From positions 1-54,311 of the forward strand of contig CANQYE010000005.1 of NCBI GenBank assembly GCA_947627995.1: a stretch of 54,311 nt of DNA, written 5' to 3'. The DNA is from an uncultured Bacilli bacterium (GTDB taxonomy: Bacteria; Bacillota_I; Bacilli_A; RF39; UBA660). The notes under the pieces are model-generated. The model ran no database searches, was not told where the DNA came from, and was given only the letters and a program-made list of their open reading frames with translations. Below are positions 9,939 to 54,166 of the stretch, piece after piece (within the stretch, counting starts at the first letter, position 1; each line of letters begins with the position of its first letter). The position numbers were made by a program, and so were the translations under genes.

Positions 9939-9967
9939 ATACTAATAGAAGAATGTTTATTTGTCAA
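9939..9967 (-). promoter_or_regulatory. promoter of the candidate small RNA
   Basis: Perfect TTGACA, 17-base spacer and TAGTAT on the minus strand, with predicted transcription start near 9932, immediately before the first hairpin. Confidence 0.6.
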
Positions 9968-10020
9968 CACTTTTTTACAATTTTTTTAAATTTTTTTGTA
10001 TAATTAATGTGGAGGCAGTT

Positions 10021-12015
10021 ATGAATTTAGAAGATATTAAAGGAATTGGAACAAAAACTATAGAAACATTAAATAAAATGCATATTTTTAATATTCTAGA
10101 TTTAGTAACTTATTATCCTTATAAATATCAAATATTAAAATTAAGTAATATTAATGAAAATACAAATTCGTCAATAGTTGTGGAAGGTATTATAGAATCA
10201 ATACCCAAAGTAAATTATGTAAAAAGAAATCTTAATCGATTAACATTTTCTGCAATAATTAATAATTTAAGAGTAAACGTTGTTATTTTTAATCGTGCTT
10301 TTATGAAAAACAATTTAAAGGTAGCAGACCAAATAACACTTATAGGTAAATATAACAAAATAAAAAATCAATTTATCGCAAGTGATATAAGACTTTCTAA
10401 AATTAAAGGGGTGAAAATAGAAGGAATTTATCATCTTATTAATGGCATAAAAAGAAATAGTTTAAATAAGATTATAAATAGCGCTTTAACCACTAATTAT
10501 TATTTAATAGATTATATACCTAATTTTTTAGTGACAAATTATAATTTTTTAGCTAAAGATGAAGCTATTAAAATATTACATAACCCAATTACAATTAGTG
10601 ATTTAAAAAAAGCTAAGTTAAGAACTATTTATGAAGAATTATTTTTATTTATGTTTAAAATGAATTATTTAAGTTATAAAAGAAAATTAGAAAGTAAAGC
10701 TATAAAAAGGAATGTTAACAATAAAGATGTAGAAAAATTTATTAATAATCTTCCTTTTAAACTGACAATAGATCAAGAAAAAGCAGTAATGGATATATTT
10801 AATGATTTAAATAATGAAAAAAGAATGAATCGCTTGCTTCTTGGGGATGTTGGAAGTGGAAAAACAATAATATCTGTAATTGCAATTTATATTAATTTTT
10901 TAAGTGGTTATCAAAGCGCTTTAATGGCTCCTACTGAAATTTTAGCAACCCAACATTATAATTCCATTATGGAAATATTTGATAATTATGGAATAAAAGT
11001 AAGACTTTTAGTTGGAAGTATTAATAAAAAAGAAAAAGATAATATTATTTTGCAGTTAAAAAATGGAGAAATAGATTTAATAGTTGGAACTCATGCAATT
11101 ATTAGTGAAAATATAAAATTTAAAAATTTAGGATTGGTGATAACTGATGAACAACATCGTTTTGGTGTTAATCAGCGAAAAAATTTGCAAAATAAAGGGG
11201 TAAAAACTGATGTTTTATATTTAAGTGCAACTCCAATACCTAGAACATATGCTTTAACATTATATGGAGATATGGATATTTCGATAATTAAAACTAAACC
11301 AAAAGGAAGAAAGGAAATCATAACAAAAGTAAAAAAAGAAAAAGAAATTAAAGACATTTTATTACATGTGTTAGAAAGTGTAAAAAATCATCATCAAGTT
11401 TATGTAGTTGCCCCAATGATTGAAGAAGATGAAGAAAGCACTTTAAATAATGTTAATAATTTGGCTGAAAAATTTAAATTAGCTTTTCATAATAAAGTAA
11501 ACATTGGTGTTATTCATGGCAAAATAAAGCCACAAGAAAAAGATAACATTATGAATAAATTTCAAAATAATGAAATAAATATTTTAATTTCAACTACGGT
11601 TATTGAAGTAGGTATTGATGTAAAAAATGCTAATATGATGATTATATTTAATGCCGAAAGATTTGGACTTGCAACACTTCATCAACTAAGAGGACGTGTT
11701 GGCAGAGGAGAAGATCAATCATATTGTTATTTAATAAGCAACTATGATACTAAAAGATTAAAAGTAATGGAAGAATCAAATGATGGGTTTTATATTAGTG
11801 AAAAAGATTATGAAATAAGAGGAGAAGGAGATATTTTTGGTACAATCCAAAGTGGAGATATGTCTTTTAAAATGGCAAATTTAAAAAAAGATTTTAAAAT
11901 TCTTTTACAAGCTAAGAAAGATAGTGCAAAATTTATTGAAGAAAATATAAAAGATAATTTTGATAAATATCCCCAATTTAAAAATATAATATCTGAAATA
12001 ACTTTCATAAATTAA
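10021..12015 (+). CDS. recG: ATP-dependent DNA helicase RecG
   Basis: Branch-migrating helicase that reverses stalled forks and processes Holliday junctions. The ORF track begins at 9961 with a TTG, but the ATG at 10021 has a GGAGG site just upstream and gives the expected N terminus (MNLEDIKGIGTKT), so I use it (664 aa). Domains: wedge/OB-fold (about 1-150), helicase core with Walker A LLGDVGSGKT, DEQHRFG box, ATPIPRT motif and the QLRGRVGRG motif, then the RecG C-terminal segment. It lies directly upstream of the OLE-like RNA, separated by about 120 bases without a clear terminator. Confidence 0.95.
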   Translation: MNLEDIKGIGTKTIETLNKMHIFNILDLVTYYPYKYQILKLSNINENTNSSIVVEGIIESIPKVNYVKRNLNRLTFSAIINNLRVNVVIFNRAFMKNNLKVADQITLIGKYNKIKNQFIASDIRLSKIKGVKIEGIYHLINGIKRNSLNKIINSALTTNYYLIDYIPNFLVTNYNFLAKDEAIKILHNPITISDLKKAKLRTIYEELFLFMFKMNYLSYKRKLESKAIKRNVNNKDVEKFINNLPFKLTIDQEKAVMDIFNDLNNEKRMNRLLLGDVGSGKTIISVIAIYINFLSGYQSALMAPTEILATQHYNSIMEIFDNYGIKVRLLVGSINKKEKDNIILQLKNGEIDLIVGTHAIISENIKFKNLGLVITDEQHRFGVNQRKNLQNKGVKTDVLYLSATPIPRTYALTLYGDMDISIIKTKPKGRKEIITKVKKEKEIKDILLHVLESVKNHHQVYVVAPMIEEDEESTLNNVNNLAEKFKLAFHNKVNIGVIHGKIKPQEKDNIMNKFQNNEINILISTTVIEVGIDVKNANMMIIFNAERFGLATLHQLRGRVGRGEDQSYCYLISNYDTKRLKVMEESNDGFYISEKDYEIRGEGDIFGTIQSGDMSFKMANLKKDFKILLQAKKDSAKFIEENIKDNFDKYPQFKNIISEITFIN

Positions 12016-12137: not shown

Positions 12138-12166
12138 TTGACAAAATTAAAGAAATATGATAAAAT
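12138..12166 (+). promoter_or_regulatory. strong promoter of the OLE-like RNA / oapA-like unit
   Basis: TTGACA, a 17-base spacer and TAAAAT. The predicted start near 12173 falls exactly at the first arm of the structured region. Confidence 0.75.
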
Positions 12167-12172
12167 TTATTT

Positions 12173-12535
12173 ATTAATTGATTGTGGTGCATTATTCTAG
12201 TTGCGGAAAAATTATCGGAAGGTAGGGCTAAAAATCTACTGCTTGTTAATCAATTAACATGTCGTGCGAAATATAAAGATATTGTACTGATCAGACAATG
12301 ATATACTTTATATTTTTATAGCGAATAAGGGTAATTTAAAGCATTAGGGAAAACCTCTAGAGTGTTAAGTTATAAAGATTAAAATACGGACTAAGTGGCA
12401 ATCGAGTCATTAATTTGGCGACAGTTAATTATTTTCTATAAAGAGAAATCGCCCGAGGGTAACCAAAGGAGAGAAAATAGAGAAATTCAACTCGACCTAA
12501 AGCCGTAAAATTAATTTATAATTAACCACACAAAT
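12173..12535 (+). ncRNA. long structured non-coding RNA, probable OLE RNA
   Basis: About 360 bases with no ORF but many long-range pairings. TTAATTGATT pairs with AATCAATTAA (12174/12248). There is a hairpin built on AAATATAAAG...CTTTATATTT (about 12268-12317). GGCGA/TCGCC (12417/12449) sits inside CGAGT/ACTCG (12403/12490). A terminal GTGGT/ACCAC pair joins the two ends (12184/12525). It is less AT-rich than its surroundings. The gene immediately downstream looks like OapA, whose gene is known to follow OLE RNA in Firmicutes, so OLE is my best call. It is shorter than the roughly 600 nt of classical OLE. I see no RNase P or tmRNA signature. Confidence 0.55.
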
Positions 12536-12549
12536 TAAAGGAGAATTAT

Positions 12550-13068
12550 ATGAATAAAAAGAGATCAATAATAAAAATATTTATAATCTCTTTTTTTCTA
12601 GCAATAATTTTTGGCCTTGGGACAAATGCTTTTGCTAGCAAATTTAATGAGATTATTCTTATAATACTTACTTTTCTAATTATAATAGTAGGTATAATAT
12701 TTGATATGATTGGCACAAGTGCTTTAACAAGTAAAGAATCCACTTTTCATGCTATGTCTGCAAAAAAAATAAAAGGAGCATCTAAAACAGTCGATTTAAT
12801 TAAAAATTCAGCAAATGTATCAAGTATTTGTAATGACGTTGTTGGAGATGTGTGTGGTGTAATAAGTGGTTCGCTTGGAGTTTCTTTAAGTATTTTAATT
12901 TCCAATAGATATAATATATCTTTATCTTTAATTACTGTTTTAATTGCAGCAATAATTTCAGCATTAACTGTTGGCGGTAAAGCAATATTTAAACAAGTTG
13001 CTATTAAAAACAACGATAAAATTATATATAAAGTTGGGTTTATATTATCAGGATTTAAGAAAAAATAA
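12550..13068 (+). CDS. OapA-like small membrane protein (OLE-associated)
   Basis: A 172-residue protein with about four membrane segments (about 8-26, 32-53, 105-122, 126-148). The central segment FDMIGTSALTSKESTFHAMS, then KKIKGASKT and the NDVVGDVCGVISG motif, resemble the small family often annotated as CorB-like and identified as the OLE RNA membrane partner OapA. In that system the ribonucleoprotein sits at the membrane and is linked to magnesium and stress responses. ATG follows AAAGGAG 6 bases away and the RNA ends just before, so RNA and protein are probably one transcript. The family call rests on memory of motif spacing, not on an alignment. Confidence 0.6.
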   Translation: MNKKRSIIKIFIISFFLAIIFGLGTNAFASKFNEIILIILTFLIIIVGIIFDMIGTSALTSKESTFHAMSAKKIKGASKTVDLIKNSANVSSICNDVVGDVCGVISGSLGVSLSILISNRYNISLSLITVLIAAIISALTVGGKAIFKQVAIKNNDKIIYKVGFILSGFKKK

Positions 13069-13117: not shown

Positions 13118-13846
13118 TTGTATCAAATAAAAAATTATTTTATTGATTCAAAAGGCATTAAATATAATATTAAAAATATTAATTTTTCTGAGAAAAGTAA
13201 TTTAATTGGAAGCTTCGGAAATTTAATTGCAGAAACGGATTATAAAAATAACCCTTTTTTTTCTTCGTCAAATGGGATGGGTGTATATATTTATAAATCA
13301 AGATATGATAAAAACAGAGCTTTTAGAATTTATAAAGATTTTGCAGATTATGAATATACATTTCATGATGATGCCAAATTGATTCTAGAATTACAAAGTA
13401 GACAAGAAAAAATAAATTTAACAACATTTCCCATGGGAGTAGTAACAATTAAAAATAAAATTATTGGTCAAGAAATCCCACTTTTTGAAAAATATAAAAC
13501 TCTCTTTGAATATTTTTCTAATAAAAAAAATGCTACGGATTTATTTTTAATTTATTTAAAAATAATAGAAATTTTAAGTGAACTTTATAAAGCAGAAATT
13601 TTTTATATTGATATACATTCAAAAAATTTTTTAATAAATCCTATTACAAAACATGTTAAATTAATTGATTTTGAAAGTTCTTCATTAGCTTTTGATAATA
13701 AAAAAGCTTATAAAAAAATGCTTGAAAATTTGAAAATAATGATAAAAGAACTTAATTCTTTTTATAATTATAATAATGAAATATTTGAAAAAGCTAGTGA
13801 TTTAGAACAAATGAAAGTAGTAATAAAAAAAGAATTGAAAATTTGA
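13118..13846 (+). CDS. small protein-kinase-like fold protein
   Basis: A 242-residue protein starting at TTG behind GGTGA. It keeps the core of the protein kinase/aminoglycoside phosphotransferase fold. YIDIHSKNFLI matches the catalytic loop (D-x4-N) and KLIDFESS matches the Mg-binding D-F-x segment. An N-terminal MGVYIYKSRYDKNRAFRIYK stretch could be the nucleotide-binding strand pair. It has no membrane segment. The spacing of the loops fits a phosphotransferase rather than a typical Hanks Ser/Thr kinase. Substrate is unknown. It lies between the OapA-like gene and a small membrane protein, with no strong operon link. Confidence 0.5.
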   Translation: MYQIKNYFIDSKGIKYNIKNINFSEKSNLIGSFGNLIAETDYKNNPFFSSSNGMGVYIYKSRYDKNRAFRIYKDFADYEYTFHDDAKLILELQSRQEKINLTTFPMGVVTIKNKIIGQEIPLFEKYKTLFEYFSNKKNATDLFLIYLKIIEILSELYKAEIFYIDIHSKNFLINPITKHVKLIDFESSSLAFDNKKAYKKMLENLKIMIKELNSFYNYNNEIFEKASDLEQMKVVIKKELKI

Positions 13847-35506: not shown

Positions 35507-35595
35507 TGCTTATCTAAAGTATTGTGTAAAATTTTATAATATTGCTTAATATATTTTTTTATGATAAAATTTAAAAAGAATAAGGAGTGTTTAAA

Positions 35596-36927
35596 ATGAC
35601 AAATAGTCCACTTATTAACACGATTACTAAAAAAAATATATTATTAATAGATAAATTTAACCAATTAGATGAGGATAGTAAAATTGGAGTTTTAAAACAA
35701 ATATTTTTTTCCATTTATGAAGGGGAACGTTTATCATTAAAAAATATTAATGATGTTTTAAGTTTAATTAATAATGGTCAAAAAAATGAAAGTCTTAATT
35801 TACCAGAAAAAGTTTTAGTTAAAAAAATAAAAGATAATGAAATAAAATTTTTTTATCATAAAAATAAATTAAATAGTTTACTAATATTTTTATTATTATT
35901 TACTTTTTTATTTGCCTGTGTCGGAGCAACTTATTCTATTATTGACTATTTTAATGTAGCAAGCATGAACAAAGATTTAGACAATGATGGTATTGCTGAT
36001 ATAAATATAGATTTAAATAATGATAGGATATGTGATATCAATTGTGATTCTAATCATGATAATATTCCAGATTATAATATTGACTATAAAGGCAATCGCC
36101 AAAGTATATTTAATGTTGATAAAAATCATGATAAAAAACAAGATTTTAATTTATTAAATCAAGATCTCAATAACGATGGTGTATGTGATATTAATTGTGA
36201 TATAAATAATGATGGCTGGCCAGATATTAATATTGATATTAATGGAGATGGGAAAGCGGATTTAGATATCGATACTGATAATGATCGAAAGGCTGATTTA
36301 AATTTAGATTTAGATGGCGATAAAAATTGTGATTTAAATTGTGATATAAATAATGATTTAAAATGTGACAACATGTGCACGTTAGATTGTAGTTTACAAA
36401 ATAATAAAAACAAATGTGAAATTATAAGTGAAAATAATAGCATTAGCGAAGTAGTTGTAGTAACAGAGCCTAAAGAAAATGGAACGTCTAAAAATAATAA
36501 CCCTAATATATCTGTTTCTGTAACTCCATATTTAAGATTAATATTTGAAGATACTAATACACTTAATATAGAAAATGTCTTGCCTACTGATCAACCAAAT
36601 TCTACTCCAATACCTACTAAAACTTTTACAATAGAAAATGATTCTGATATAGAGTTAAAATATAATTTAAAATGGATAATAGGCAGTTCTACATTTACTT
36701 CAAACAATTTTAAATATAAAGTAGAATCGAATAATGGTGGTGGAATAATTGCTGAATACATACCAGTTCCAAAAACGAATAATACATTTTTAACAAATAT
36801 TTCAATTGCACCACATGCAAAGCAACAATATGTTGTAAGTTTTCAACTAGAAGGAATTAATCAAGCACAAGATGAAGATCAAGGTAAAGAATTCAATGCT
36901 CGTATAAATGCTGAAATAGCTGATTGA
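35596..36927 (+). CDS. calcium-repeat (TSP3-like) matrix protein with an internal SipW-type signal
   Basis: The ORF track starts at 35587, but AAGGAG covers that site and the ATG at 35596 is properly spaced, giving 443 residues. About 95 residues of cytoplasmic-looking sequence precede a SipW-like membrane segment (LLLFTFLFACVGATYSIIDYF). Then come about 14 Asp/Asn repeats of the D-x-N-x-D-G type (DLNNDGVCDINCD, DINGDGKADLDIDTDND) resembling thrombospondin type 3/EF-hand calcium loops, with paired cysteines. A TasA-like C-terminal beta domain ends the protein (about 290-443). Very likely an extracellular, calcium-dependent partner of the TasA-like protein. Confidence 0.75.
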   Translation: MTNSPLINTITKKNILLIDKFNQLDEDSKIGVLKQIFFSIYEGERLSLKNINDVLSLINNGQKNESLNLPEKVLVKKIKDNEIKFFYHKNKLNSLLIFLLLFTFLFACVGATYSIIDYFNVASMNKDLDNDGIADINIDLNNDRICDINCDSNHDNIPDYNIDYKGNRQSIFNVDKNHDKKQDFNLLNQDLNNDGVCDINCDINNDGWPDINIDINGDGKADLDIDTDNDRKADLNLDLDGDKNCDLNCDINNDLKCDNMCTLDCSLQNNKNKCEIISENNSISEVVVVTEPKENGTSKNNNPNISVSVTPYLRLIFEDTNTLNIENVLPTDQPNSTPIPTKTFTIENDSDIELKYNLKWIIGSSTFTSNNFKYKVESNNGGGIIAEYIPVPKTNNTFLTNISIAPHAKQQYVVSFQLEGINQAQDEDQGKEFNARINAEIAD

Positions 36928-37770: not shown

Positions 37771-38566
37771 GCTTTTTATTTTTTCTTAATTTTTTTTCTA
37801 AAATAGTAATAATTTTATATAAAAGATAAGATATTATAATTAAAATTATGATTGAAGTCATTACTAAATCTAAATTAAACATTTGCTTACCATACATTAT
37901 TAAATAACCAAGCCCACTTTTTGATACTAAAAACTCACCCATTATAACTCCAATTAAAGACATAGAAATATTTAATTTTAAAGAAGAAATAATAGTATTT
38001 AAAGAACTTGGAATAATTAACTTGAATAATATTTGTGTTTTTGTTGCTTTAAAAGATAATAATAATTTTATTTTATTTTTGTCTATATCCATAAATCCAT
38101 TATATATGGTTATAATATTTATAATTAAATTTATTAAAAGAGCCATAAAAATTATAGAGTTTTTATTTGCACCAATCCAAATAATAATTAGTGGACCTAA
38201 TGCAACTTTTGGAAGAGAATTTAACAATGTTAAAAAAGGATCAAATACTTTAGCTAAAAATTGGAAAGAATATAATATTATAGCTATTATTATTCCTAGT
38301 GTAATACCTAACATAAAAGCTATAAGTGTTTCTGTTAAAGTAGTAAAAATATGCATAAATAAATCGCCAGTTTTTAATAGGGATATAAAAGTTTTTGCAA
38401 TAGAACTAGGACTAGAAAAAATAAATGAATTTATTATATTAAATTTTGCTAAAAATTCCCAAATAGAAAAAAATATAATTACGATAGACAATTGAGTTAC
38501 AGAAACTAATATTCTTTTTTTTCTTTGCTTTTTTAAAAATAATCTTTGCTCATTTGACATTAACAT
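37760..38566 (-). CDS. ABC transporter permease, SsuC/TauC/ThiX type
   Basis: A 268-residue permease with about six membrane segments. SFKATKTQILFKLIIPSSL matches the EAA loop that contacts the ATPase, and MGEFLVSKSGLGYLI is typical of the nitrate/taurine/HMP group. It starts inside the end of the ATPase gene (17-base overlap), so it was the last gene of a three-gene operon. It looks intact, but both upstream genes are broken by insertions, so transcription and use are uncertain. Substrate unknown: a thiamine precursor, sulfonate or similar. Confidence 0.85.
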   Translation of the reverse strand: MLMSNEQRLFLKKQRKKRILVSVTQLSIVIIFFSIWEFLAKFNIINSFIFSSPSSIAKTFISLLKTGDLFMHIFTTLTETLIAFMLGITLGIIIAIILYSFQFLAKVFDPFLTLLNSLPKVALGPLIIIWIGANKNSIIFMALLINLIINIITIYNGFMDIDKNKIKLLLSFKATKTQILFKLIIPSSLNTIISSLKLNISMSLIGVIMGEFLVSKSGLGYLIMYGKQMFNLDLVMTSIIILIIISYLLYKIITILEKKLRKNKKPIF

Positions 38567-38727
38567 CTAAATCCTTCCAAATTTTTTCATAATATATTGA
38601 AAATTCTGGAGCTTTCCTATTCTCTATAGGATTTTTTTTATTAGTCAATTTTATATCATAAATTTTTTTTATTTTAGCCGGACGCTTTGATAATACTATT
38701 ATTTTATCCGCTAGACTTATTGCTTCA
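38550..38727 (-). pseudogene. 3' fragment of the ABC ATPase gene
   Basis: Encodes SEAISLADKIIVLSKRPAK and the C-terminal helix, the expected continuation after the H-loop of an ABC ATPase. Upstream of codon GAA the frame runs into element B (ORF track adds 26 unrelated residues). Joining it at TGAAG to the 5' fragment at 43287-43866 gives an uninterrupted 753-base frame (250 residues), the normal size for this family. It is thus the far half of a gene split by element B. Confidence 0.9.
38723..38727. other. attachment-site core, left end of element B
   Basis: CTTCA (TGAAG on the gene strand), shared with 43287-43291. The inferred intact target reads CTAGCTGAAGCAATAAG on the gene strand. Confidence 0.8.
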
Positions 38728-38741
38728 CTTATGTATAAATT

Positions 38742-38751
38742 AAACATAAAA
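38742..38751 (+). repeat. terminal inverted repeat, left arm of element B attP
   Basis: AAACATAAAA, 14 bases from the core; its inverse TTTTATGTTT is at 43264-43273, 13 bases from the other core. Symmetric arms of this sort are expected for a recombinase dimer site. Confidence 0.6.
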
Positions 38752-38765
38752 AAATATAATTTATT

Positions 38766-39920
38766 ATGAATACTGGAATATATATAAGAGTTTCTACGGA
38801 AGAACAAGCACAAAAAGGGTTTAGTCTAGAAGCTCAAAAAGAAAAGCTTACATGGTTAGCTCACATTAAAGATTGGAACATAATTAATGTCTATGAGGAT
38901 AAAGGAATAAGTGGTAAAGATTTAAATCGTCCAGAAATTATTCGAATGATAAATGATATTAAAAATAAAGTAATAGAAAATGTTTTAGTTTTTAAAATAG
39001 ATAGATTAACTCGAAGTACTAAAGATTTAATATATTTAGTGGAAATTTTTAATAAATATAATTGTGCTTTTAATTCTTTGACTGAATCAATTGATACCAC
39101 TAGTGCAACAGGTAGAATGTTTATAAAAATAATTGGAATTTTTGCAGAATTTGAACGAGAAAATTTAATAGAACGAGTGAAACTTGGTATTGATCGTAAA
39201 GTGAGCGAAGGATATTCTATATGTTCAAGTACTCCTTCTTATGGTTATTATAAAAATAAAGGTGATAATATTTTGAGACCTTTAAAAAAAGAAGCTATAA
39301 TAGTTAATTTAATTTTTGATCTTTATTTAAAAAATTATAGTTTTTTACAAATTGCTAAAATTTTAGATAGAAAAAAAATACCTACGAAAAAAAATAAAAC
39401 TTGGACGGCAAAAACTATTCAATTAATATTAACTAATCCTAACTATATCGGAAAAGTAAGGCATAATATTAATTCAAAAAAATATGAAGAAATTAATGGT
39501 AAACATAAAGGTATAGTGAGTAATGAAAAATTTGCTAAAGTAAAAGAAAAAATTTATAAAAACAAATTATTGCATATTACAAAAAAAACAAATAATGATG
39601 CGTTTTATGTTAATTATTTAAAATGTGGTTTTTGTAATAATAATTTTTATCCTAAAAGGACCATAATTAATAAAAAAACATTTATAAGTTATTATTGCAA
39701 AAATAAAAAAATTAAAAAATGTTCGCAGAAATCTATAAGCCATAATAGGTTAGATAAAGAAATAAAATTATTTTTACAAAAAAAGGGATTTTATATTAAC
39801 TGGGATGATTTGTCATATGAATTAAAAAATCAATTTTTAAAATTAACAAATATAAAAATAGTTATAAAAACATTTGAAAAAAAAGCGTTACCAATTATTA
39901 AAATAGATTCTTTATTGTAA
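38766..39920 (+). CDS. serine site-specific recombinase of element B
   Basis: A 384-residue recombinase. The resolvase domain starts at IYIRVSTEEQAQKGFSLE (catalytic Ser in RVST), with VFKIDRLTRSTKDL and a GIFAEFERENLIERV helix. A recombinase domain follows (about 165-260), then a zinc ribbon (YLKCGFCNNNF...YYCKNKKIKKC). It is shorter than most large serine integrases (450-550), lacking most of the coiled coil, and similar in size to compact recombinases such as those excising developmental elements. Its ATG is 39 bases from the element end with no clear ribosome site. It ends in a dyad shared with the opposing glycosyltransferase gene. Confidence 0.92.
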   Translation: MNTGIYIRVSTEEQAQKGFSLEAQKEKLTWLAHIKDWNIINVYEDKGISGKDLNRPEIIRMINDIKNKVIENVLVFKIDRLTRSTKDLIYLVEIFNKYNCAFNSLTESIDTTSATGRMFIKIIGIFAEFERENLIERVKLGIDRKVSEGYSICSSTPSYGYYKNKGDNILRPLKKEAIIVNLIFDLYLKNYSFLQIAKILDRKKIPTKKNKTWTAKTIQLILTNPNYIGKVRHNINSKKYEEINGKHKGIVSNEKFAKVKEKIYKNKLLHITKKTNNDAFYVNYLKCGFCNNNFYPKRTIINKKTFISYYCKNKKIKKCSQKSISHNRLDKEIKLFLQKKGFYINWDDLSYELKNQFLKLTNIKIVIKTFEKKALPIIKIDSLL

Positions 39921-39930
39921 AGAATCTATT
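39900..39930. terminator. dyad between convergent recombinase and glycosyltransferase genes
   Basis: AAATAGATTCTTTA, TTG, TAAAGAATCTATTT: a 14-bp perfect inverted repeat that encodes the last residues of both proteins. Probable bidirectional terminator, though the T tracts are weak. Confidence 0.5.
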
Positions 39931-40997
39931 TGGTTTATTATAATTTTTTTGTTTTCAAGCAATCTTTTGTTATTCTTATCCATTTTTATGGCTTTATCAA
40001 TATAGAATAATGCAAGATCATATTCATTTTCATTAAAATAAGCTATTGACAATAAATCATAAGGTGTAATATCCCAACTAAAAGGTTCATTTATGTATGT
40101 TTTGTTATGATTTTTAATTTTTAAGGCCATATTAACGTATTTTATTACATCGGACCAATTATGACATTCATATTCTAGAAGAGCCCTTTCTATATAAGGA
40201 TCTCTTAAATAAGGAGCTTCGTTAATAGCCTTATCTAACCACATTCTCGCTTCATCAAATCTTTTTAAATTTTTATAACTCCTAGCAATAAATCTCATAG
40301 ATGCACATCTTTCATCTTTCCATACAGCGGTTTTTAAATTTAAGTGTTTAATTAATGTATCAATACATTTATTCCATTTTTGATAATACATATATTCACG
40401 ACCTAAATAGTGCATATTTCGATCATCATTAGGATTTTCTTTGACTGAAAGTTCTAATAAAGGCAAATAAGAGCTTCTAGATTTATTATCATCAGGATAA
40501 TGATTAACAGTTATTTCATTTGTTTCTTCAAATATTTCATTATCTTTTTCATATGATAGTATTTCGTGAACAGGATGTGTCCATTTATAATTATGTCTGG
40601 TGTGAATTTTGTCGATATAAAAATTTATGATTGGATTATTATTTTCATCTAATTTCCAATTATAATTATATCTAAGTCTAGTAGTTTTATCTTTCCAAAT
40701 TTCTTCTAATTTTTTTCGCCAACCGGGCAGTATTACTTCATCTAAATCTAGACAAACACAAATATCATAATCATCAGGTATTAGTTTAAGAGATTCATTT
40801 CTTGCTACATCAAAACGCCAAGGATGAATTTTTTTAACTTTAACAATAGCTCCTAGTTCTTTTAGTTTAGAAACTGTTTTATCTGTAGATCCCGTATCTA
40901 ATACATAAATAGCATCAGCTTCTTTTGCAGAATTCATAAATCTTTCTACAAATTTTTCTTCATTTTTAGCTATTGCATATACGCAAATTTTTTTAAT
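39912..40997 (-). CDS. family 2 glycosyltransferase fused to TPR-like repeats
   Basis: A GT-A catalytic domain begins at KKICVYAIAKNEEKF, with LDTGSTDKTV and the LDLDEV metal-binding DxD. After about residue 200 come helical TPR-like repeats. The ORF track uses an ATG at 41078 that gives an odd 27-residue leader inside the upstream gene. A ribosome site AAGAAGG sits 7 bases before an in-frame ATT at 40997, with no ATG, GTG or TTG nearby, so a rare ATT start is likely. It follows the collagen-like gene, so glycosylation of the Thr-rich GPT repeats is the natural inference. Substrate sugar unknown. Confidence 0.85.
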   Translation of the reverse strand: MKKICVYAIAKNEEKFVERFMNSAKEADAIYVLDTGSTDKTVSKLKELGAIVKVKKIHPWRFDVARNESLKLIPDDYDICVCLDLDEVILPGWRKKLEEIWKDKTTRLRYNYNWKLDENNNPIINFYIDKIHTRHNYKWTHPVHEILSYEKDNEIFEETNEITVNHYPDDNKSRSSYLPLLELSVKENPNDDRNMHYLGREYMYYQKWNKCIDTLIKHLNLKTAVWKDERCASMRFIARSYKNLKRFDEARMWLDKAINEAPYLRDPYIERALLEYECHNWSDVIKYVNMALKIKNHNKTYINEPFSWDITPYDLLSIAYFNENEYDLALFYIDKAIKMDKNNKRLLENKKIIINQIDSLQ

Positions 40998-41067
40998 GAT
41001 TATACCTTCTTTCTTTATAATATATGAGAAAATTAGAATAAATTGAAAAAAACGAATATTATTCGTT

Positions 41068-41919
41068 TTATTCAGCATTTGCAGATGGACTAAGTAATTT
41101 TATATTAAGAGATGCATTATTAACATTTCCTGTAGCAGCAGTAGTAGATTCTAATGCTAAGTCTATTTCATCGCCTTCAGATAAGTCTACTATAATACTA
41201 CCATTATAATTATATTGTCCACCAGCTTCAAAAGTGTTAGAAATAGTTGTTCCATTAATATCTTCTGTATTATTTCTAACGGAAAAAGCAATTGTATCTG
41301 CATTAGTTGAAGTAACATTTGCCATATAACTAATTTCATAAGTTCCAGCTTCACTAACATTTAATGAATTAGTTCCAGTTGTAACATTAGAAAGTGGAGT
41401 TGGAGTAGCTAATGCAATTTGATCTGGTGTATTTGGTGTTAATGTAAAAGCATCAGTAGTATTATTATATAATCCTCCATATGCTCCAAGGCCATTTCCT
41501 GTAGGTCCAGTCGGTCCTTGAGGAACTGTAAAAGTTAAGGTATAGTTACCATTTTCACCAGAAATATCTACGGCTGCATTCTCACCTGGAGCGGCAGTAG
41601 TAGTATCACCTATAGCAATTGTTGGAGCTGGCCCAGTTTCTCCCGTAGGTCCAGTTGGTCCCGTAGGTCCCGTAGGCCCAGTAGGTCCTGTAGCACCTGT
41701 TACACCAACCGGTCCAATAAATCCTTGTGGTCCCGTAGGTCCAGTCGGCCCAGTAGGTCCTGTAGGTCCTGTAGGCCCAGTCGGTCCAGTCGGTCCTCCA
41801 CTAGGTCCAGTCGGTCCAGTCGGTCCAATAGTTCCGGATGCTAAAAAACCACAACAACATGATGGGCATTTCCCTTGATTGTTTTGTATATAATTTAAGG
41901 CTTTTTGATATGAATTCAT
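41068..41919 (-). CDS. collagen-like (BclA-type) surface protein, 283 aa
   Basis: N-terminal block [22 protein letters not shown] (shared with the next gene) is followed by about 24 G-P-T-type triplets (residues 30-100), with one interruption ([13 protein letters not shown]), then a roughly 180-residue C-terminal domain. The end of that domain ([13 protein letters not shown]..., LALES...) resembles the C1q/TNF-like BclA C-terminal trimer. It has no signal peptide, as in spore-surface BclA. ATG behind AAAGGAG and a consensus sigma-K promoter. Probably forms a trimeric filament on the spore surface. Confidence 0.88.
41640..41832 (-). repeat. tandem GPT-coding repeats of the 283-aa gene
   Basis: Period-9 array GGTCCNGTNGGNCC-like, GC-richer than the rest of the window. 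A substrate for slippage that would change collagen length in multiples of three residues. Confidence 0.8.
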
Positions 41920-41937
41920 AATTTCTCCTTTCTAATA

Positions 41938-41964
41938 TAAAATATGACGATATTGATTTTTTGT
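41938..41964 (-). promoter_or_regulatory. putative sigma-K promoter of the 283-aa collagen-like gene
   Basis: On the minus strand AC, exactly 16 bases, CATATTTTA, ending 18 bases before the ATG, with AAAGGAG between. Same pattern as at the CotZ-like gene. Confidence 0.5.
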
Positions 41965-42047
41965 AGCTTATTTAAACCCAAGTATATGATTATTAAAACA
42001 ATTATATTATTTTGATTTAATTAATATAATTTTATTAAAAGATTTAA

Positions 42048-43199
42048 CTAGCCTAAATACTGAATTAAAATAGTTATAATAGGATTAACAAAATAAGAAT
42101 TTGAAATAGTATTATCTAAAAAAGGAGTGTTCAAATTTAAAGTTTCTTTAGACATGTTTATTAATTCCATTTTTTCTGTTTCGGGATTTTTTATTACAAA
42201 CATGCCTTGGCCTATGATTGTTGTAGTTTTTGTGGTTTGCCATGAAGATGCACCAGCATAGACAATATCTTCGTTAATTTTTTTAAAACCAACAGCGACT
42301 ACATTTTCTTTATTAAGTTGTGCACTTTCAGAAAATGTTTGGACTACAAAACTAACTTTATAAACTCCACCTTTTTCAAACCCAATAGTATTATCATCTA
42401 AAGTAAATGCACCAGTATTATCTACTTCTTTTCGTAAAATAGGTAATCGTTGATTGCTTTCTATACTATAGCCAGCAGTATCGTTATTATTAAAAGTAAC
42501 AAAAAGTGCTGTGGTAATTTCTTCTGGTCCCGGAGCCCCAGTTGGTCCTGTTTCACCTTGGGGGCCAGGAATTCCAGGGACACCTTGTTCACCTCGAATT
42601 CCTCTAGGACCTGTTGGGCCTTGTATGCCTGGTAGACCTTGTGGTCCTCTAATTACTCCTACATCATTCCAATTTCCATTTTCTGCAGACCAAACATATA
42701 AATTATCGCCAACTAAATAACTTTGACCTGGGCTTCCGATAGGGTGTGAGTCTTCTAAATCTTTTAAATTATCAAAAGATCCTAGTATTGTGACACTTGT
42801 GCCTGCAGGTCCAGTTGGCCCCATTGGCCCTTGTTCACCATTAGCACCTTTAGGAAGTACAAAATTTAAAATGTGATCATAACCATTACCAGAATCAATA
42901 ACATCAGCGCTACTTTCTGAATTTCCAATAGTAATTGTTCCAATAGAAAAGTTTATTGGAACAGCTTCTCCTTGTGGCCCAGTAGGTCCAGTCGGCCCAG
43001 TAGGTCCAGTCGGCCCAGTTGCCCCAGTTGGTCCGTTGCTAGGGCCAATCGGTCCAGTCGGTCCAGTCGGTCCAGTCGGTCCAGTTTCTCCCGTAGGTCC
43101 CGTAGGTCCAGTAGCCCCAGAAATAGGAATATAATTACATGATGGGCATTTTTTTTGATTGTTTTCTACATAATTTAAAGCTTTTTGAAAATAATCCAT
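42048..43199 (-). CDS. collagen-like (BclA-type) surface protein, 383 aa
   Basis: N-terminal block [20 protein letters not shown] is nearly the same as in the neighbour. A first GPT-rich collagen stretch (about 28-75) is followed by a short beta segment, a globular insert ([18 protein letters not shown]...[10 protein letters not shown], about 138-188, a module seen in other bacterial collagens), a second collagen stretch with more varied triplets ([13 protein letters not shown]), then a C1q-like C-terminal domain. No signal peptide. ATG behind AAAGGAG, and CATATTTTA lies 19 bases upstream. First gene of the element's minus-strand operon. Confidence 0.88.
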
Positions 43200-43218
43200 A
43201 AATATCTCCTTTCTATAA

Positions 43219-43227
43219 TAAAATATG
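43219..43227 (-). promoter_or_regulatory. partial sigma-K-like -10 box of the 383-aa collagen-like gene
   Basis: CATATTTTA in the same context as the neighbour's promoter (followed by a similar AGAAAGGAGA ribosome site), but no AC at the -35 distance. Weaker candidate. Confidence 0.3.
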
Positions 43228-43263
43228 AATTTATATAGATAAAGCCACTAGAAAACATAAGTA

Positions 43264-43273
43264 TTTTATGTTT
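43264..43273 (-). repeat. terminal inverted repeat, right arm of element B attP
   Basis: TTTTATGTTT on the plus strand, inverse of the left arm. Confidence 0.6.
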
Positions 43274-43286
43274 ATGTTGAATATAA

Positions 43287-43291
43287 CTTCA
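43287..43291. other. attachment-site core, right end of element B
   Basis: Second copy of CTTCA at the junction between the ATPase 5' fragment and element B. Confidence 0.8.
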
Positions 43292-43866
43292 GCTAGGTCA
43301 TGAGTAACCATTATTGCTGTCTTATTTTCTTGTTTAATAATTTTATATACATCATCTGATACAGCTAATCTTGTTTGATAATCCAATGCTGAAAAAGCTT
43401 CGTCTAAAAGCAAAATATCTGGTTTAATTGCTAAAGTCCTTATTAAAGCAACTCTTTGGCGCATTCCTCCAGAAAGTTCATCAGGGTATTTATTAAGGAA
43501 ATCTTTTAAGCCATAAGTTTCTAATAAATTTTTTGCGTATTCTACATTTTCTTTAGTTCTCATTTTCATTATATTTAGTCCAATTAATGTATTATCAAGA
43601 ATATTTAGCCATGGGAATAATGCATCATCTTGTAACATATAGCCAATCTTAGGATTTTTTTTATTGAATTTAAATTCTCCACTAGTTAAAGTGTCTAATG
43701 ATGCTAAAATAGTTAAAAGGGTGCTTTTTCCACACCCTGAACTTCCTACAATAGCTATAAATTCACCCTCATTAACATCTAAACTAATATCTTCTATAGC
43801 TTTTATTTCTCCATTTACTGTATGATAAGTCTTGCTTAAATTTTTAATTGATAAAATATTTTTCAT
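43287..43866 (-). pseudogene. 5' fragment of the ABC ATPase gene (SsuB/TauB/ThiZ type)
   Basis: The first 193 residues of an ABC ATPase: Walker A GSSGCGKSTLL, Q-loop GYMLQDDALFPWL, signature LSGGMRQRVALIRTL, Walker B ILLLDEAFSALD, H-loop MVTHDLAE. Beyond the GAA codon the ORF runs 18 residues into element B. All catalytic motifs lie in this fragment, but the C-terminal part that binds the permease and stabilises the dimer is missing. Its start overlaps the end of the binding-protein gene (TAATG). Confidence 0.92.
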
Positions 43867-44411
43867 TACTTGTTATTAACCAAATCTTTGTATGGAACAT
43901 ATTCTTTTAAGTTTCCTGATTTAATCATAATATCTTCTAAATTTATAAAAGTTTGTTCTTTAATATTTGTATTATCTAACCAAGAATCAGCCTCTTTGTA
44001 TCTTTTTATCATTGTAGTTAAATCAGTTAATGATGAGTCTGGGAATTGATTTAAAATAGATTTAGCGATTTTTTCTGGAATATTATCTTTAACATATTTA
44101 ATTCCTTTATTTAAAGCTTTAGAAAAATTCTTGATTATTTTTTCATTATCTTTTATATAACTTTTCCTTGCATAAAATGTAGTATAAGGAACTTCTCCAG
44201 AAAATTTTCCTACAGATCCAACTACGTAGCCATATCCTTGTTTTTCAAGTAAAGTAGCATTTGGTTCAAATAAGTTTACAAAATCTCCTGATCCAGAAAT
44301 AAAAGCACTGGATAAATCAGCAAATTCTATTGTTGTATTCATATTTATTCTTTTTTTATTTGCATTACTTTTATCAACTGCATTTTCAAAATTTAAATAA
44401 GGCATTCCGCC
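43866..44411 (-). pseudogene. 3' fragment of the substrate-binding protein gene (NMT1/SsuA-like)
   Basis: Encodes GGMPYLNFENAV onward, the second lobe of an NMT1/THI5-type binding protein, ending LVNNK. Upstream of codon GGC the frame enters element A with no ATG start (only a TTG from element DNA). Joined at GG to the 5' fragment it gives a 984-base frame (327 codons plus stop). Confidence 0.92.
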
Positions 44412-44515
44412 CCATCTCAACAAGAGTGATGACAAATTAAACGAAGTTAATAGTTATAAGGGTTAAAATATATTTTTCTAATTACAAAAATATGTATATG
44501 AAAGAGGTATTTATA

Positions 44516-45988: not shown

Positions 45989-46858
45989 TTATTTTTCAAT
46001 AAATGTATGGTATGTAGTGTAAAAGTCAAAATTAACTTTACCTAAAGCACCATACCTATTTTTGATAACACTTAAAGTTATCTTTCTTGGGTTTCTTTTA
46101 GCCTCGTATTCTCGTTCATTGGCACCGTTATTAACATACTCTAAACCTATAAGAATATCGCTAGTGTATTCTATACTACCACTTTCTTTAAAACTTTCCA
46201 TACTGATACTACCACTATAATTAGTTCTATTAAGGCTACTGATTTCTATGATACAAATATTAAGTTCTTTAGCTAACTCTTTTAACCTTTTAGTTATGAT
46301 ATCAATAACTTGTTTATCGTTGCCATTATTTCCACACAAGATATATTGTAAGTAGTCTATAATTACAACAATGTTATCATTCTCGTGTAAGTCCTTAAAT
46401 TGTCTTATAAAAGCCTCAATATCTCGTATATCATAGATATAGTCTATTGTATATAAGTTATTTGCTATTGGCTCGTATTGGCTTAATAATGCCTCATAAT
46501 CTACCATCTTATTATTAGATAACAAATCATCAAAGGTATAGTTGTTTAAATTATCATTTACATAACTTAATCGGCTTAAACTCTTTGAGATAATATCAAA
46601 TCTAGACATTTCCAAAGAGAACAATAAAACTTTTGTGTTTTCCATACTTGCCATATTATCAGCAACTTGTAAAGCAAAAGTAGTTTTACCTAAACTTGGT
46701 ATAGCACCTAAAGTTATTAACCCATTAGGTAAACCACCATTAAGCAAGTTATCTAATTTACTAAAACCTGTTCTTATTTTTTTAACTTGTGTGTCATCTT
46801 GGATGTATGACAAATAATCTTGTAATGTATCAGTAGTATTCTTTAACTCTGTATTCAT
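45989..46858 (-). CDS. DnaB-type replicative helicase domain protein, element A
   Basis: A 289-residue single-domain protein equal to the RecA-like C-terminal half of DnaB. It has an unusual Walker A (ITLGAIPSLGKTTFALQ), VLLFSLEMSRFDI, Walker B VVIIDYLQYI and a DnaB motif IEISSLNRT...ESGSIEYTSDILIGL. The DnaB N-terminal domain is missing, as in plasmid and phage helicases. It presumably acts with the Rep-like protein in replication of the excised element. ATG behind GGAGG-like AGGAGGAACA. Confidence 0.85.
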   Translation of the reverse strand: MNTELKNTTDTLQDYLSYIQDDTQVKKIRTGFSKLDNLLNGGLPNGLITLGAIPSLGKTTFALQVADNMASMENTKVLLFSLEMSRFDIISKSLSRLSYVNDNLNNYTFDDLLSNNKMVDYEALLSQYEPIANNLYTIDYIYDIRDIEAFIRQFKDLHENDNIVVIIDYLQYILCGNNGNDKQVIDIITKRLKELAKELNICIIEISSLNRTNYSGSISMESFKESGSIEYTSDILIGLEYVNNGANEREYEAKRNPRKITLSVIKNRYGALGKVNFDFYTTYHTFIEK

Positions 46859-52026: not shown

Positions 52027-53655
52027 ATGAAAGGTAGTAAAATATATAATGTTGGTATCTATATTCGTTTATCTCGTGAAGATGAAGATAAAAAGAAAAT
52101 GGAAAGTGAAAGTATTTCTAATCAAAGAAATATTATTCTAGATTATATCAACAAACAAGATGAAAATTTTAAAATTTATGATGAGTATGTAGATGATGGT
52201 GTTAGTGGAACTACATTTGATAGACCTGATTTTAATAGACTTATAAAAGATATAGAAAGTGGCTATGTTAATTGTGTTATTACTAAAGACTATTCAAGAC
52301 TTGGTAGAGATTATATTAAGGCTGGGGAATATATGGAAAAATATTTTCCCGAACACAATGTAAGATATATTGCTATACTAGATGATATAGACACTTATCT
52401 AGATAATGTTAGTAATGATATAGCACCTTTTAAAGCAGTATTCAACGACCAATATGCAAAAGATACATCAAAGAAAGTTAAAAGAACTTTAAGAAATAGA
52501 AAAGAACAAGGTTTATTTTTAGGGTGGAAAGCCGTATATGGCTATAAACTTGATGAAAATGATAGATATAAGTTAGTTGTAGATGAAGAGGCTGCTAAAG
52601 TTGTTAAAAGAATATTTAAAATGGCTTATGATGGTATGGGGTGTAAGGTTATTGCAGATACATTATCAAAAGAGGGTGTGCCTATTCCTAGTGTATATGC
52701 CGATTTAAATCGTGGTAGAAAATCTAGTGCTTATGGTTTATGGAATTCTAGAACTATTGATGAAATGTTAAATAATGAAACTTATATAGGTAATATGACA
52801 CAAGGTAGAAGAAAAAGAATTAACTATAAGATTAAGAAAGAAATTAGGACACCTAAAGAAAGTTGGATTATAGTAGAAAATACACATGAGCCAATTATAG
52901 ATAAAGAAATGTTTGATGTAGTTCAAAAAAGTTATAAAAAGAATAAAAATCAACAAAGCAACACCAAAAATCATTTGCTTAAAGGTTTTATGTTTTGTGA
53001 AGAGTGCGGTCATGCAATATCTATATCAACTAAGAAAGATGGTAGGGCTTATATAAATTGTTCTTACTATCAAAAGTATAGTAAATTTAAAGTATGTACT
53101 CCACACACTATGAATTATTTTCTATTAGAAGAAATGGTGCTTAAAGAGGTTAGAGATATGTGTAAGAAATATGTTAAGAGCACTAACTTTGAAACGATAC
53201 TTAAGAACTCATCTAAAAGAAATAAGTTAAGAGAAAATTTGTTAGGGCAAATAAATGCTTGTAAGTTAGAAAAAGAAAAATTGAGTAATAGAAAAAAACA
53301 AATCTATTTTGATAAAGCAGATGAAGTAATTACTCTTGAAGAATATAGAGATTTTAGTAATCAAATAGTAAATGAGATAATTAAGCAAGATGAAATACTA
53401 AATGAACTAGAGAAGCAATTAGGTATTCTAGAAAACAAGATTACACCAAATGATGAATACCAAGAAATTATCAAAGAGTATTTAAAAATGAGAAAACCAA
53501 ACAAAAGACTTTTATCTTATATAATTGATAAAATTATCATCAATCAAAATAAAGAAATAACAATAAAGTATAACATTAAAAATCCACAGGATTTACTAAA
53601 TGAAATTAGTGCAAAAAAAACAGCCAAAAATGGCAATGTCATAGACGGCAACTAG
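52027..53655 (+). CDS. large serine recombinase of element A
   Basis: A 542-residue recombinase. Resolvase domain with IYIRLSREDEDKKKMESES (catalytic Ser in RLSR) and ITKDYSRLGRDYIKAGEYME, a recombinase domain (about 195-300), a zinc ribbon (GFMFCEECGHAIS...YINCSYYQKYSKFKVC), a coiled coil (about 410-490) and a C-terminal DUF4368-like tail. This is the TndX/TnpX layout, which catalyses integration and excision. ATG behind GGAGG. It lies 73 bases inside the right end. Confidence 0.95.
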   Translation: MKGSKIYNVGIYIRLSREDEDKKKMESESISNQRNIILDYINKQDENFKIYDEYVDDGVSGTTFDRPDFNRLIKDIESGYVNCVITKDYSRLGRDYIKAGEYMEKYFPEHNVRYIAILDDIDTYLDNVSNDIAPFKAVFNDQYAKDTSKKVKRTLRNRKEQGLFLGWKAVYGYKLDENDRYKLVVDEEAAKVVKRIFKMAYDGMGCKVIADTLSKEGVPIPSVYADLNRGRKSSAYGLWNSRTIDEMLNNETYIGNMTQGRRKRINYKIKKEIRTPKESWIIVENTHEPIIDKEMFDVVQKSYKKNKNQQSNTKNHLLKGFMFCEECGHAISISTKKDGRAYINCSYYQKYSKFKVCTPHTMNYFLLEEMVLKEVRDMCKKYVKSTNFETILKNSSKRNKLRENLLGQINACKLEKEKLSNRKKQIYFDKADEVITLEEYRDFSNQIVNEIIKQDEILNELEKQLGILENKITPNDEYQEIIKEYLKMRKPNKRLLSYIIDKIIINQNKEITIKYNIKNPQDLLNEISAKKTAKNGNVIDGN

Positions 53656-53728
53656 GGGCTCATCAAAAGTGAGGACGGGTTAAACCCTTATTTTTCAAGG
53701 GTGTGTTCTCACTTTAATTGAGCGACCC
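53656..53728. repeat. right-end dyad of element A
   Basis: Long imperfect inverted repeat (AAAGTGAG...CTCACTTT around AACCCTT...AAGGGT) that may serve as recombinase terminator and as half of the attachment site. Confidence 0.5.
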
Positions 53729-54166
53729 TGTTCTTCCGACTAATACTTCTTTGTTTTCTAAGTCAGTCATTTCAAAATCTTTAATTTTTTTTCTGCTAAC
53801 AATAAATTGTCCATCTCTTTTTGTAAGACCTGCAAATGCTTGAATATAATCTTTTTCTCCACCATTATATACATATATTGCACTTTCTGGTCCAGCAAAT
53901 CCAATATTAACATCATTAGATAAAACAGCTGCAGCTACATTATCTGCTCCGCTAGTAAGGATAAGTTCTACATCTAATCCAACCTCTTTGAAATAGCCTT
54001 TTTCTATAGCTACATACCAAGGAGCGTAAAAAGTACTATGAGTTACTTCTGCAACTTTAATTGTTTTTAAATTTTCATCATTTGATTTATTGATCTTATT
54101 ATAAGTTAAAAAAACAATAAAAGCTGCTAGTAAAATAATTAAAAATATTATCACAATTTTTTTCGT
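53727..54166 (-). pseudogene. 5' fragment of the substrate-binding protein gene (NMT1/SsuA-like), ACG at the start position
   Basis: An N-terminal membrane or signal segment (IVIIFLIILLAAFIVFLTY) and the first lobe (THSTFYAPWYVAIEKGYF, SGADNVAAAVLSNDVNIGFAG, LTKRDGQFIVSR, LENKEVLVGRT) of an NMT1/THI5-like binding protein. The track's GTG at 54154 is 20 bases from AAAGGAGG. The correctly spaced codon is ACG at 54166, giving (M)KKIVIIFL, the expected signal start. So the start is a rare ACG, or a decayed ATG. The frame then runs into element A at GG. Confidence 0.9.

Follow-up and report, generated by a model that had tools for sequence, protein, structure and literature searches.

OLE is a large non-coding RNA of bacteria whose biochemical function has been sought for two decades and whose size poses a practical barrier to its study. 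The function of this RNA in H. halodurans depends on both its k-turn for OapC and its bS21 site, and its domain 2 is so far without a resolved structure. Besides the full-length form of about 600 nucleotides (RF01071; H. halodurans, C. acetobutylicum), reduced versions have been described. The RF39 clade contains variant 2, in which P7 and P8 are absent and P5 and P6 are kept (Fernando and Breaker 2024, PMC11332333), and the TANB77 clade contains variant 1, likewise a reduced OLE in a gut lineage with reduced genomes, where P7, P8 and P9 are short, the OapB site is often absent and a loss of P5/P6 is not reported (PMC11332333). OLE, OapA and a size-reduced OLE in RF39 are thus known already, and what is new in this study is a form devoid of P5 to P8, with a loss of P5/P6 finding no mention in the available passages of PMC11332333 and of other OLE literature. 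The class already includes an OLE that has lost P7 and P8, namely variant 2 (PMC11332333), so that the present form, which we term mini OLE, counts as one of its variants rather than as a full-length member.

The locus is contained in a stretch of 54,311 nucleotides (the window) from an uncultured member of the Bacilli, whose genome of 0.97 Mb in 27 contigs is 94% complete and harbors a single copy of OLE (Table 1). Named relatives of the locus are found in gut metagenome bins labelled uncultured Bacilli, Erysipelotrichaceae or Tenericutes, which in combination with PMC11332333 makes the host a gut bacterium that probably belongs to RF39. The Rfam model of OLE (RF01071) matches the RNA end to end with 138.9 bits (E 1.2e-36) compared to a gathering score of 50, and the conserved blocks of the class (GUGGUGCA/UAUUCUAGU, CUAAAAAU, GGAAAACCUCUAGA, GGACUAAGUGG and GACCUAAG) are all present in the Rfam alignment. 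Folding energy by itself is weak evidence for a structured RNA, since its z-score amounts to only -1.9, with 4 of 100 shuffled sequences folding equally well. The RNA sits directly upstream of oapA and, as judged from sequence, the identity of the pair as OLE RNA and OapA appears virtually certain. A preliminary description of the DNA had already proposed an OLE RNA, with the Rfam model as the means to check it and RNase P or another RNA class as the outcome that would speak against it. The match over the full model bears out this proposal, and no other Rfam family, including RNase P, scores in the segment bar a snoRNA match far below threshold. The same description was correct in its coordinates, in naming recG as neighbor and in its claim of a strong promoter, which is of near-consensus type, and it placed the RNA at the short end of the family, which agrees with a length of 378 nucleotides, whereby the shortness reflects a discrete loss of P5 to P8 that was invisible to it.

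The promoter ranks best among seven promoter-like sites in the region, and since such sites are common in shuffled sequence (on average 12.1), what counts in its favor is where it is located and how closely it matches the consensus. TTGACA with similar spacing is also found upstream of both other mini loci. A single promoter precedes the RNA and oapA, and the mini OLE transcript probably starts near 12173 and comprises about 360 nucleotides. The upstream neighbor recG is located at 9961-12015 (NCBIfam RecG, 779 bits). On the 3' side of oapA, a gene at 13118-13846 codes for a protein of 242 residues that is weakly protein kinase-like (Pkinase with E 2e-5; LanKC and Bud32-like in NCBIfam) and that carries the kinase-like stretch DIHSKNFLINPITKHVKLIDFE.

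Table 1. Features of the mini ole-oapA locus with their positions in the window. Helix names are our own assignment.
Feature	Position	Strand	Basis
Sigma-70-type promoter TTGACA-17-TAAAAT, extended -10 TG	12138..12166	+	11/12 consensus matches
OLE RNA, mini form, 378 nt	12168..12545	+	RF01071 covariance model, model 1-616
Conserved 5' block GUGGUGCAUUAUUCUAGUU, P2 region	12184..12202	+	Rfam alignment
P3/P3.1 5' strand, UGC and AAAUUAUC	12202..12216	+	Duplex prediction, partner-swap control
P4/P4a hairpin, A-rich loop CUAAAAAU at 12228-12235	12221..12240	+	Rfam alignment, locus comparison
Hairpin UGUUAA-UCAA-UUAACA in place of P5-P8	12244..12259	+	Alignment; covariation of the homologous variant 2 stem
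Shortened P9 arm (12269-12278 with 12306-12315)	12262..12325	+	Rfam alignment, predicted fold
P9.3 stem within P9 arm	12281-12285 with 12295-12299	+	Rfam alignment, predicted fold
Palindromic L9.3 loop CUGAUCAG, GAUC kissing-loop type	12287..12294	+	Sequence comparison
P3/P3.1 3' strand, GGUAAUUU and GCA	12330..12343	+	Duplex prediction, partner-swap control
OLE domain 2 (P10-P15), including GACUAAGUGG at 12389-12398	12344..12525	+	Rfam alignment
oapA ribosome-binding site AAAGGAG	12538..12544	+	Sequence
oapA, 172 aa, DVVGD (DxxxD) motif	12550..13068	+	ORF, homologues, tree, predicted fold

When sorted by the distance between CUAAAAAU and GACUAAGUGG, about 75 scorable loci fall into three discrete forms, with 161-165 nucleotides in mini, 257-311 in variant 2 and at least 326 in full-length OLE. 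The mini form comprises the locus of the window and two others (G192/L055 and G035/L025, the latter identical to L061), and it is the smallest intact OLE RNA among the loci compared here. Three further candidates for short forms were rejected, since a second OLE copy in G025 (L026), which had been considered as a mini paralogue, turned out upon inclusion of its flanks to be of the longer type and cut by a contig end, as are L054 and L056.

In the Rfam alignments, about positions 74-277 of the RNA model are replaced by 12 nucleotides, and about 40% of the RNA as usually found is missing from mini OLE. We named the helices after the text descriptions of published work and the order of hairpins, rather than from the published figures, guided by the A-rich L4 loop, the positions of the k-turn and P6 and the palindrome of L9.3, as given in the available passages of PMC9723947, PMC12054373, PMC12286853 and PMC12265935. 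By these landmarks, the missing block is assigned as P5, P6, P7 and P8. Their loss also removes the k-turn mapped for OapC, the site of bS21 and B2, one of the three bridges of the RNA dimer. The internal loop that is conserved in P9 has disappeared as well, as has the five-way junction, so that domain 1 cannot adopt the fold observed by cryo-EM. The manner of the loss is illustrated by variant 2, where a stem of about five pairs closes the P5-P6 block. The covariation score of this stem of 0.643 compares to 0.249 (sd 0.038) in shuffles and its 37 double-changed cells to 13.0, with none of 500 shuffles reaching the observed value in either case, and the score falls to 0.02-0.39 if the partner strand is slid by 1-3 columns. 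The UGUUAA/UUAACA hairpin of mini OLE corresponds to the same closing stem, now capped by four bases, so that the whole block inside the stem was excised.

The remaining parts of the RNA resemble full-length OLE in their conserved 5' blocks, P4a, the position of the P9 arm, domain 2 and the adjacency to oapA. The P2 region is near one of two OapA sites mapped in the OLE family, as described in the available part of PMC12265935. P3/P3.1 consists of 8+3 pairs in the window and 5+8 pairs in both other mini loci, and its predicted stability of -7.86 kcal/mol is destroyed if partners are swapped between sequences (-4.87 kcal/mol, sd 0.27). The hairpin P4/P4a, which in full-length OLE constitutes an OapA site and the dimer bridge B1, is with its loop 100% identical across all three mini loci. 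P9 is shortened, with its core loop reduced, but its tip still carries CUGAUCAG, whose GAUC is among the three palindromes that PMC12286853 describes for kissing of L9.3. This loop forms bridge B3 in full-length OLE and, whereas the palindromic tip of P9.3 was lost in many variant 2 RNAs, it is kept in mini. Domain 2 is complete except for a reduced P13.

The product of the downstream gene is identified as OapA from its motif, its homologues beside OLE, its phylogeny and its predicted fold. There is no match above cut-off in Pfam and NCBIfam, neither of which contains a ready-made OapA profile, and CNNM appears as weak Pfam match below cut-off. The DxxxD motif, which separates OapA from CNNM proteins (PMC11332333), is found as DVVGD at residues 96-100, and F51, D52, G55, C94, D96, G99, D100, S106, G107, G142, K144 and K148 are invariant over 69 homologues, including that of Thermosediminibacter. 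The homologue in Thermosediminibacter litoriperuensis L125, a cultured member of the Clostridia, was detected by tblastn in a scan of GTDB genomes (E 2e-35) and is preceded by OLE anchors at full-length spacing. In an AlphaFold2 model (pLDDT 90), long helices are predicted at 3-29, 34-60, 87-121 and 125-153 besides short ones, and a Foldseek search with this model places the transmembrane domain of the CNNM protein MtCorB on top (TM up to 0.59, probability 1.00), which is also published as one of the top matches of OapA from H. halodurans (PMC11332333). The protein would thus combine four long helices in a CNNM-like fold with the DxxxD motif, and it carries no CBS or CorC domain. A profile search of the PDB with 13 OapAs gave no match, and a single-sequence search found CorB weakly (E 0.15). 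The four-helix protein with OapA character envisaged in the preliminary description is consistent with this model and with the other evidence for its identity. Differences between the forms concern the N-terminus, where a fixed motif lies at a median residue of 71 in full-length hosts and 47 in variant 2 and mini, and the net charge preceding it is +6, +1 and +3, respectively. Mini OapA thus has a short basic tail, while the central KK-KG region is kept.

Across the host family, 249 of 386 genomes contain OLE and 253 contain OapA, with both in 244, OLE only in 5 and OapA only in 9 by our tally, and the mini form is found in three genomes of two genera. A tree of OapA with 87 rows separates full-length hosts on one side from variant 2 and mini on the other (99/95), and mini forms one clade (100/100) nested within variant 2, with which it shares the closing stem, the absence of P7/P8 and OapC and the lack of a long basic OapA tail. 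The simplest order would thus lead from full-length via variant 2 to mini OLE, with the basic tail lost in the first step, in what may be one event, so that its relationship to the RNA amounts to a correlation of one. Four genomes (G130, G134, G235 and G383) contain two OapA matches each, and G383 also two full-length OLE matches, which possibly reflect paralogous OLE systems or mixed bins. At another locus of the family (L053; G355:C65, 1501-2025), domain 1 of OLE passes directly into the second half of oapA, and neither domain 2 nor the first half of the gene is left, which in this 73% complete bin is either a deletion or an assembly fault.

The loss of P5/P6 could have been tied to a loss of partner genes, but neither candidate tracks it. 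A search for L7Ae/OapC came out negative in 18 of 18 genomes, irrespective of whether they contain mini, variant 2 or full-length OLE, with a positive control in B. subtilis, and bS21 was present in all 18. No genome encodes more than two KOW proteins, and these have the frame sizes to be expected of L24 and NusG, which leaves none for OapB. In contrast to the complete OLE ribonucleoprotein of the H. halodurans type, OapB and OapC were thus not found in mini genomes. There was also no match to CNNM/MpfA in the three mini genomes, which makes OapA the only CNNM-like protein recognized in them, as far as can be told from genomes that are 88-94% complete. CNNM matches in relatives, which had been considered as MpfA, are by their position mostly oapA itself.

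The mini loci share a DNA identity of 87-88% that spans the promoter, the RNA and oapA from 12122/12136 to 13076 and nothing beyond, and their flanks differ, with recG at the locus of the window and murA and an SGNH hydrolase at the two others. These sharp edges, together with an identity of 91% for OapA compared to 60-64% for RecG, would point to a cassette that moved recently between genera and whose conservation originates from sharing rather than from function. Such a transfer would, however, have left near-identity at synonymous positions, whereas fourfold sites of oapA are identical to only 42-46% between genera, close to the 34-42% in recG (in counts that are small, about 59 in oapA). 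Recent transfer is thus mostly refuted by the saturation of these sites, and we regard the cassette explanation as improbable overall, although a transfer long ago with strong selection thereafter is conceivable. The saturation instead implies that the ole-oapA unit is old and that selection acts to keep both the protein and the RNA. The same data bear on the question whether mini OLE might be a decaying relic, which lost P5-P8 since OLE became idle in this lineage, as could be suspected from the reduced genome, the losses that successively affected the RNA and the basic OapA tail, and the broken fusion of ole and oapA in a member of the family. Yet the three mini loci share 99% identity in domain 2, despite saturated synonymous sites and compared to 72-86% between variant 2 genomes with similar RecG divergence, and the reading frame of OapA is uninterrupted, with its motif preserved. 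The RNA is thus maintained and not decaying, and the relic reading is largely refuted and very improbable. Finally, an artefact of metagenome assembly that removed P5-P8 from a longer OLE could be imagined in a genome of 27 contigs and in light of the contig ends that cut other loci of the family, but its probability is negligible as the same form with the same junction is found in three assemblies from two genera.

By analogy to the described systems, we consider it likely that the mini ole-oapA locus encodes a minimal membrane ribonucleoprotein. In such a complex, the mini RNA would associate with OapA as a CNNM-like four-helix membrane protein, which would anchor it at the membrane via the P2 and P4a sites flanking P3/P3.1. 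The RNA may further pair with itself through the A-rich L4 and the palindromic L9.3, a dimerization that is suggested by these two loop sequences and that we consider evenly balanced between presence and absence. Domain 2 would be the carrier of the indispensable function, and the module taking input from OapC and bS21 would be absent. The complex might tune the balance of divalent metal ions such as Mg2+ or the tolerance to stress in a cell where no MpfA was found, a role that we infer from H. halodurans. The more far-reaching proposal of a natural minimal OLE core, consisting of an RNA of about 360 nucleotides and one protein, with no OapC or bS21 site, still dimeric by way of two RNA loops, active in the conserved role of OLE and with domain 2, the P3 stem and OapA being sufficient, is tentative and falls slightly short of an even chance.

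An alternative role for the RNA would be confined to cis, where it could act as a structured 5' leader of metal-sensing, riboswitch-like character that controls translation or transcription of oapA, after its trans function in a ribonucleoprotein was lost with P5-P8. The shared promoter, the ribosome-binding site of oapA at the 3' end of the RNA and a length that is now within the range of long leaders would fit such a role. However, an expression platform is not visible, given that the + strand carries no intrinsic terminator and that the predicted fold leaves the ribosome-binding site unpaired, and it is domain 2 that is the most conserved part, with the elements on the OapA side kept as well. 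We thus regard a mere leader as unlikely and favor the membrane ribonucleoprotein. Since about 40% of the RNA was lost yet the rest is strongly conserved, mini OLE would mark the part that these bacteria cannot do without. The natural removal of both the OapC and the bS21 site with their helices, in an RNA that is otherwise nearly fixed, would separate regulatory inputs from the core. It also offers a construct of about 360 nucleotides for structural work, with domain 2 making up half of the molecule, and the preservation of the P3/P3.1 stem with its 11-13 pairs, while most of domain 1 is gone, bears on the membrane-spanning proposal.

Elsewhere in the window, two genes of an ABC transporter are interrupted by insertions. 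The gene of its NMT1/THI5-like solute-binding protein on the - strand is split into a C-terminal half at 43869-44435 and an N-terminal half at 53717-54154 (regions 43866-44435 and 53714-54154) by an insertion of about 9.3 kb, in which a large serine recombinase is encoded at 52027-53655 and a DnaB-type helicase at 45989-46858. The gene of the ATPase of the same transporter is also split, with its C-terminal end (ISEAISLADKIIVLSKRP...) located at about 38560-38740 and the remainder occupying 43231-43866. Its 4.5 kb insert (38740-43260) contains a further serine recombinase at 38766-39920, together with a glycosyltransferase and two collagen-like proteins with G-P-T repeats, and an 8-base direct repeat (AAACATAA) is found around it at 38742 and 43253. 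A gene at 35587-36927, which is preceded by one for a TasA/camelysin-like protein and followed by a signal-peptidase-like gene, encodes a membrane protein of 446 residues without Pfam match that contains many tandem D-x-D/N-x-D repeats with the appearance of EF-hand or thrombospondin type 3-like motifs.
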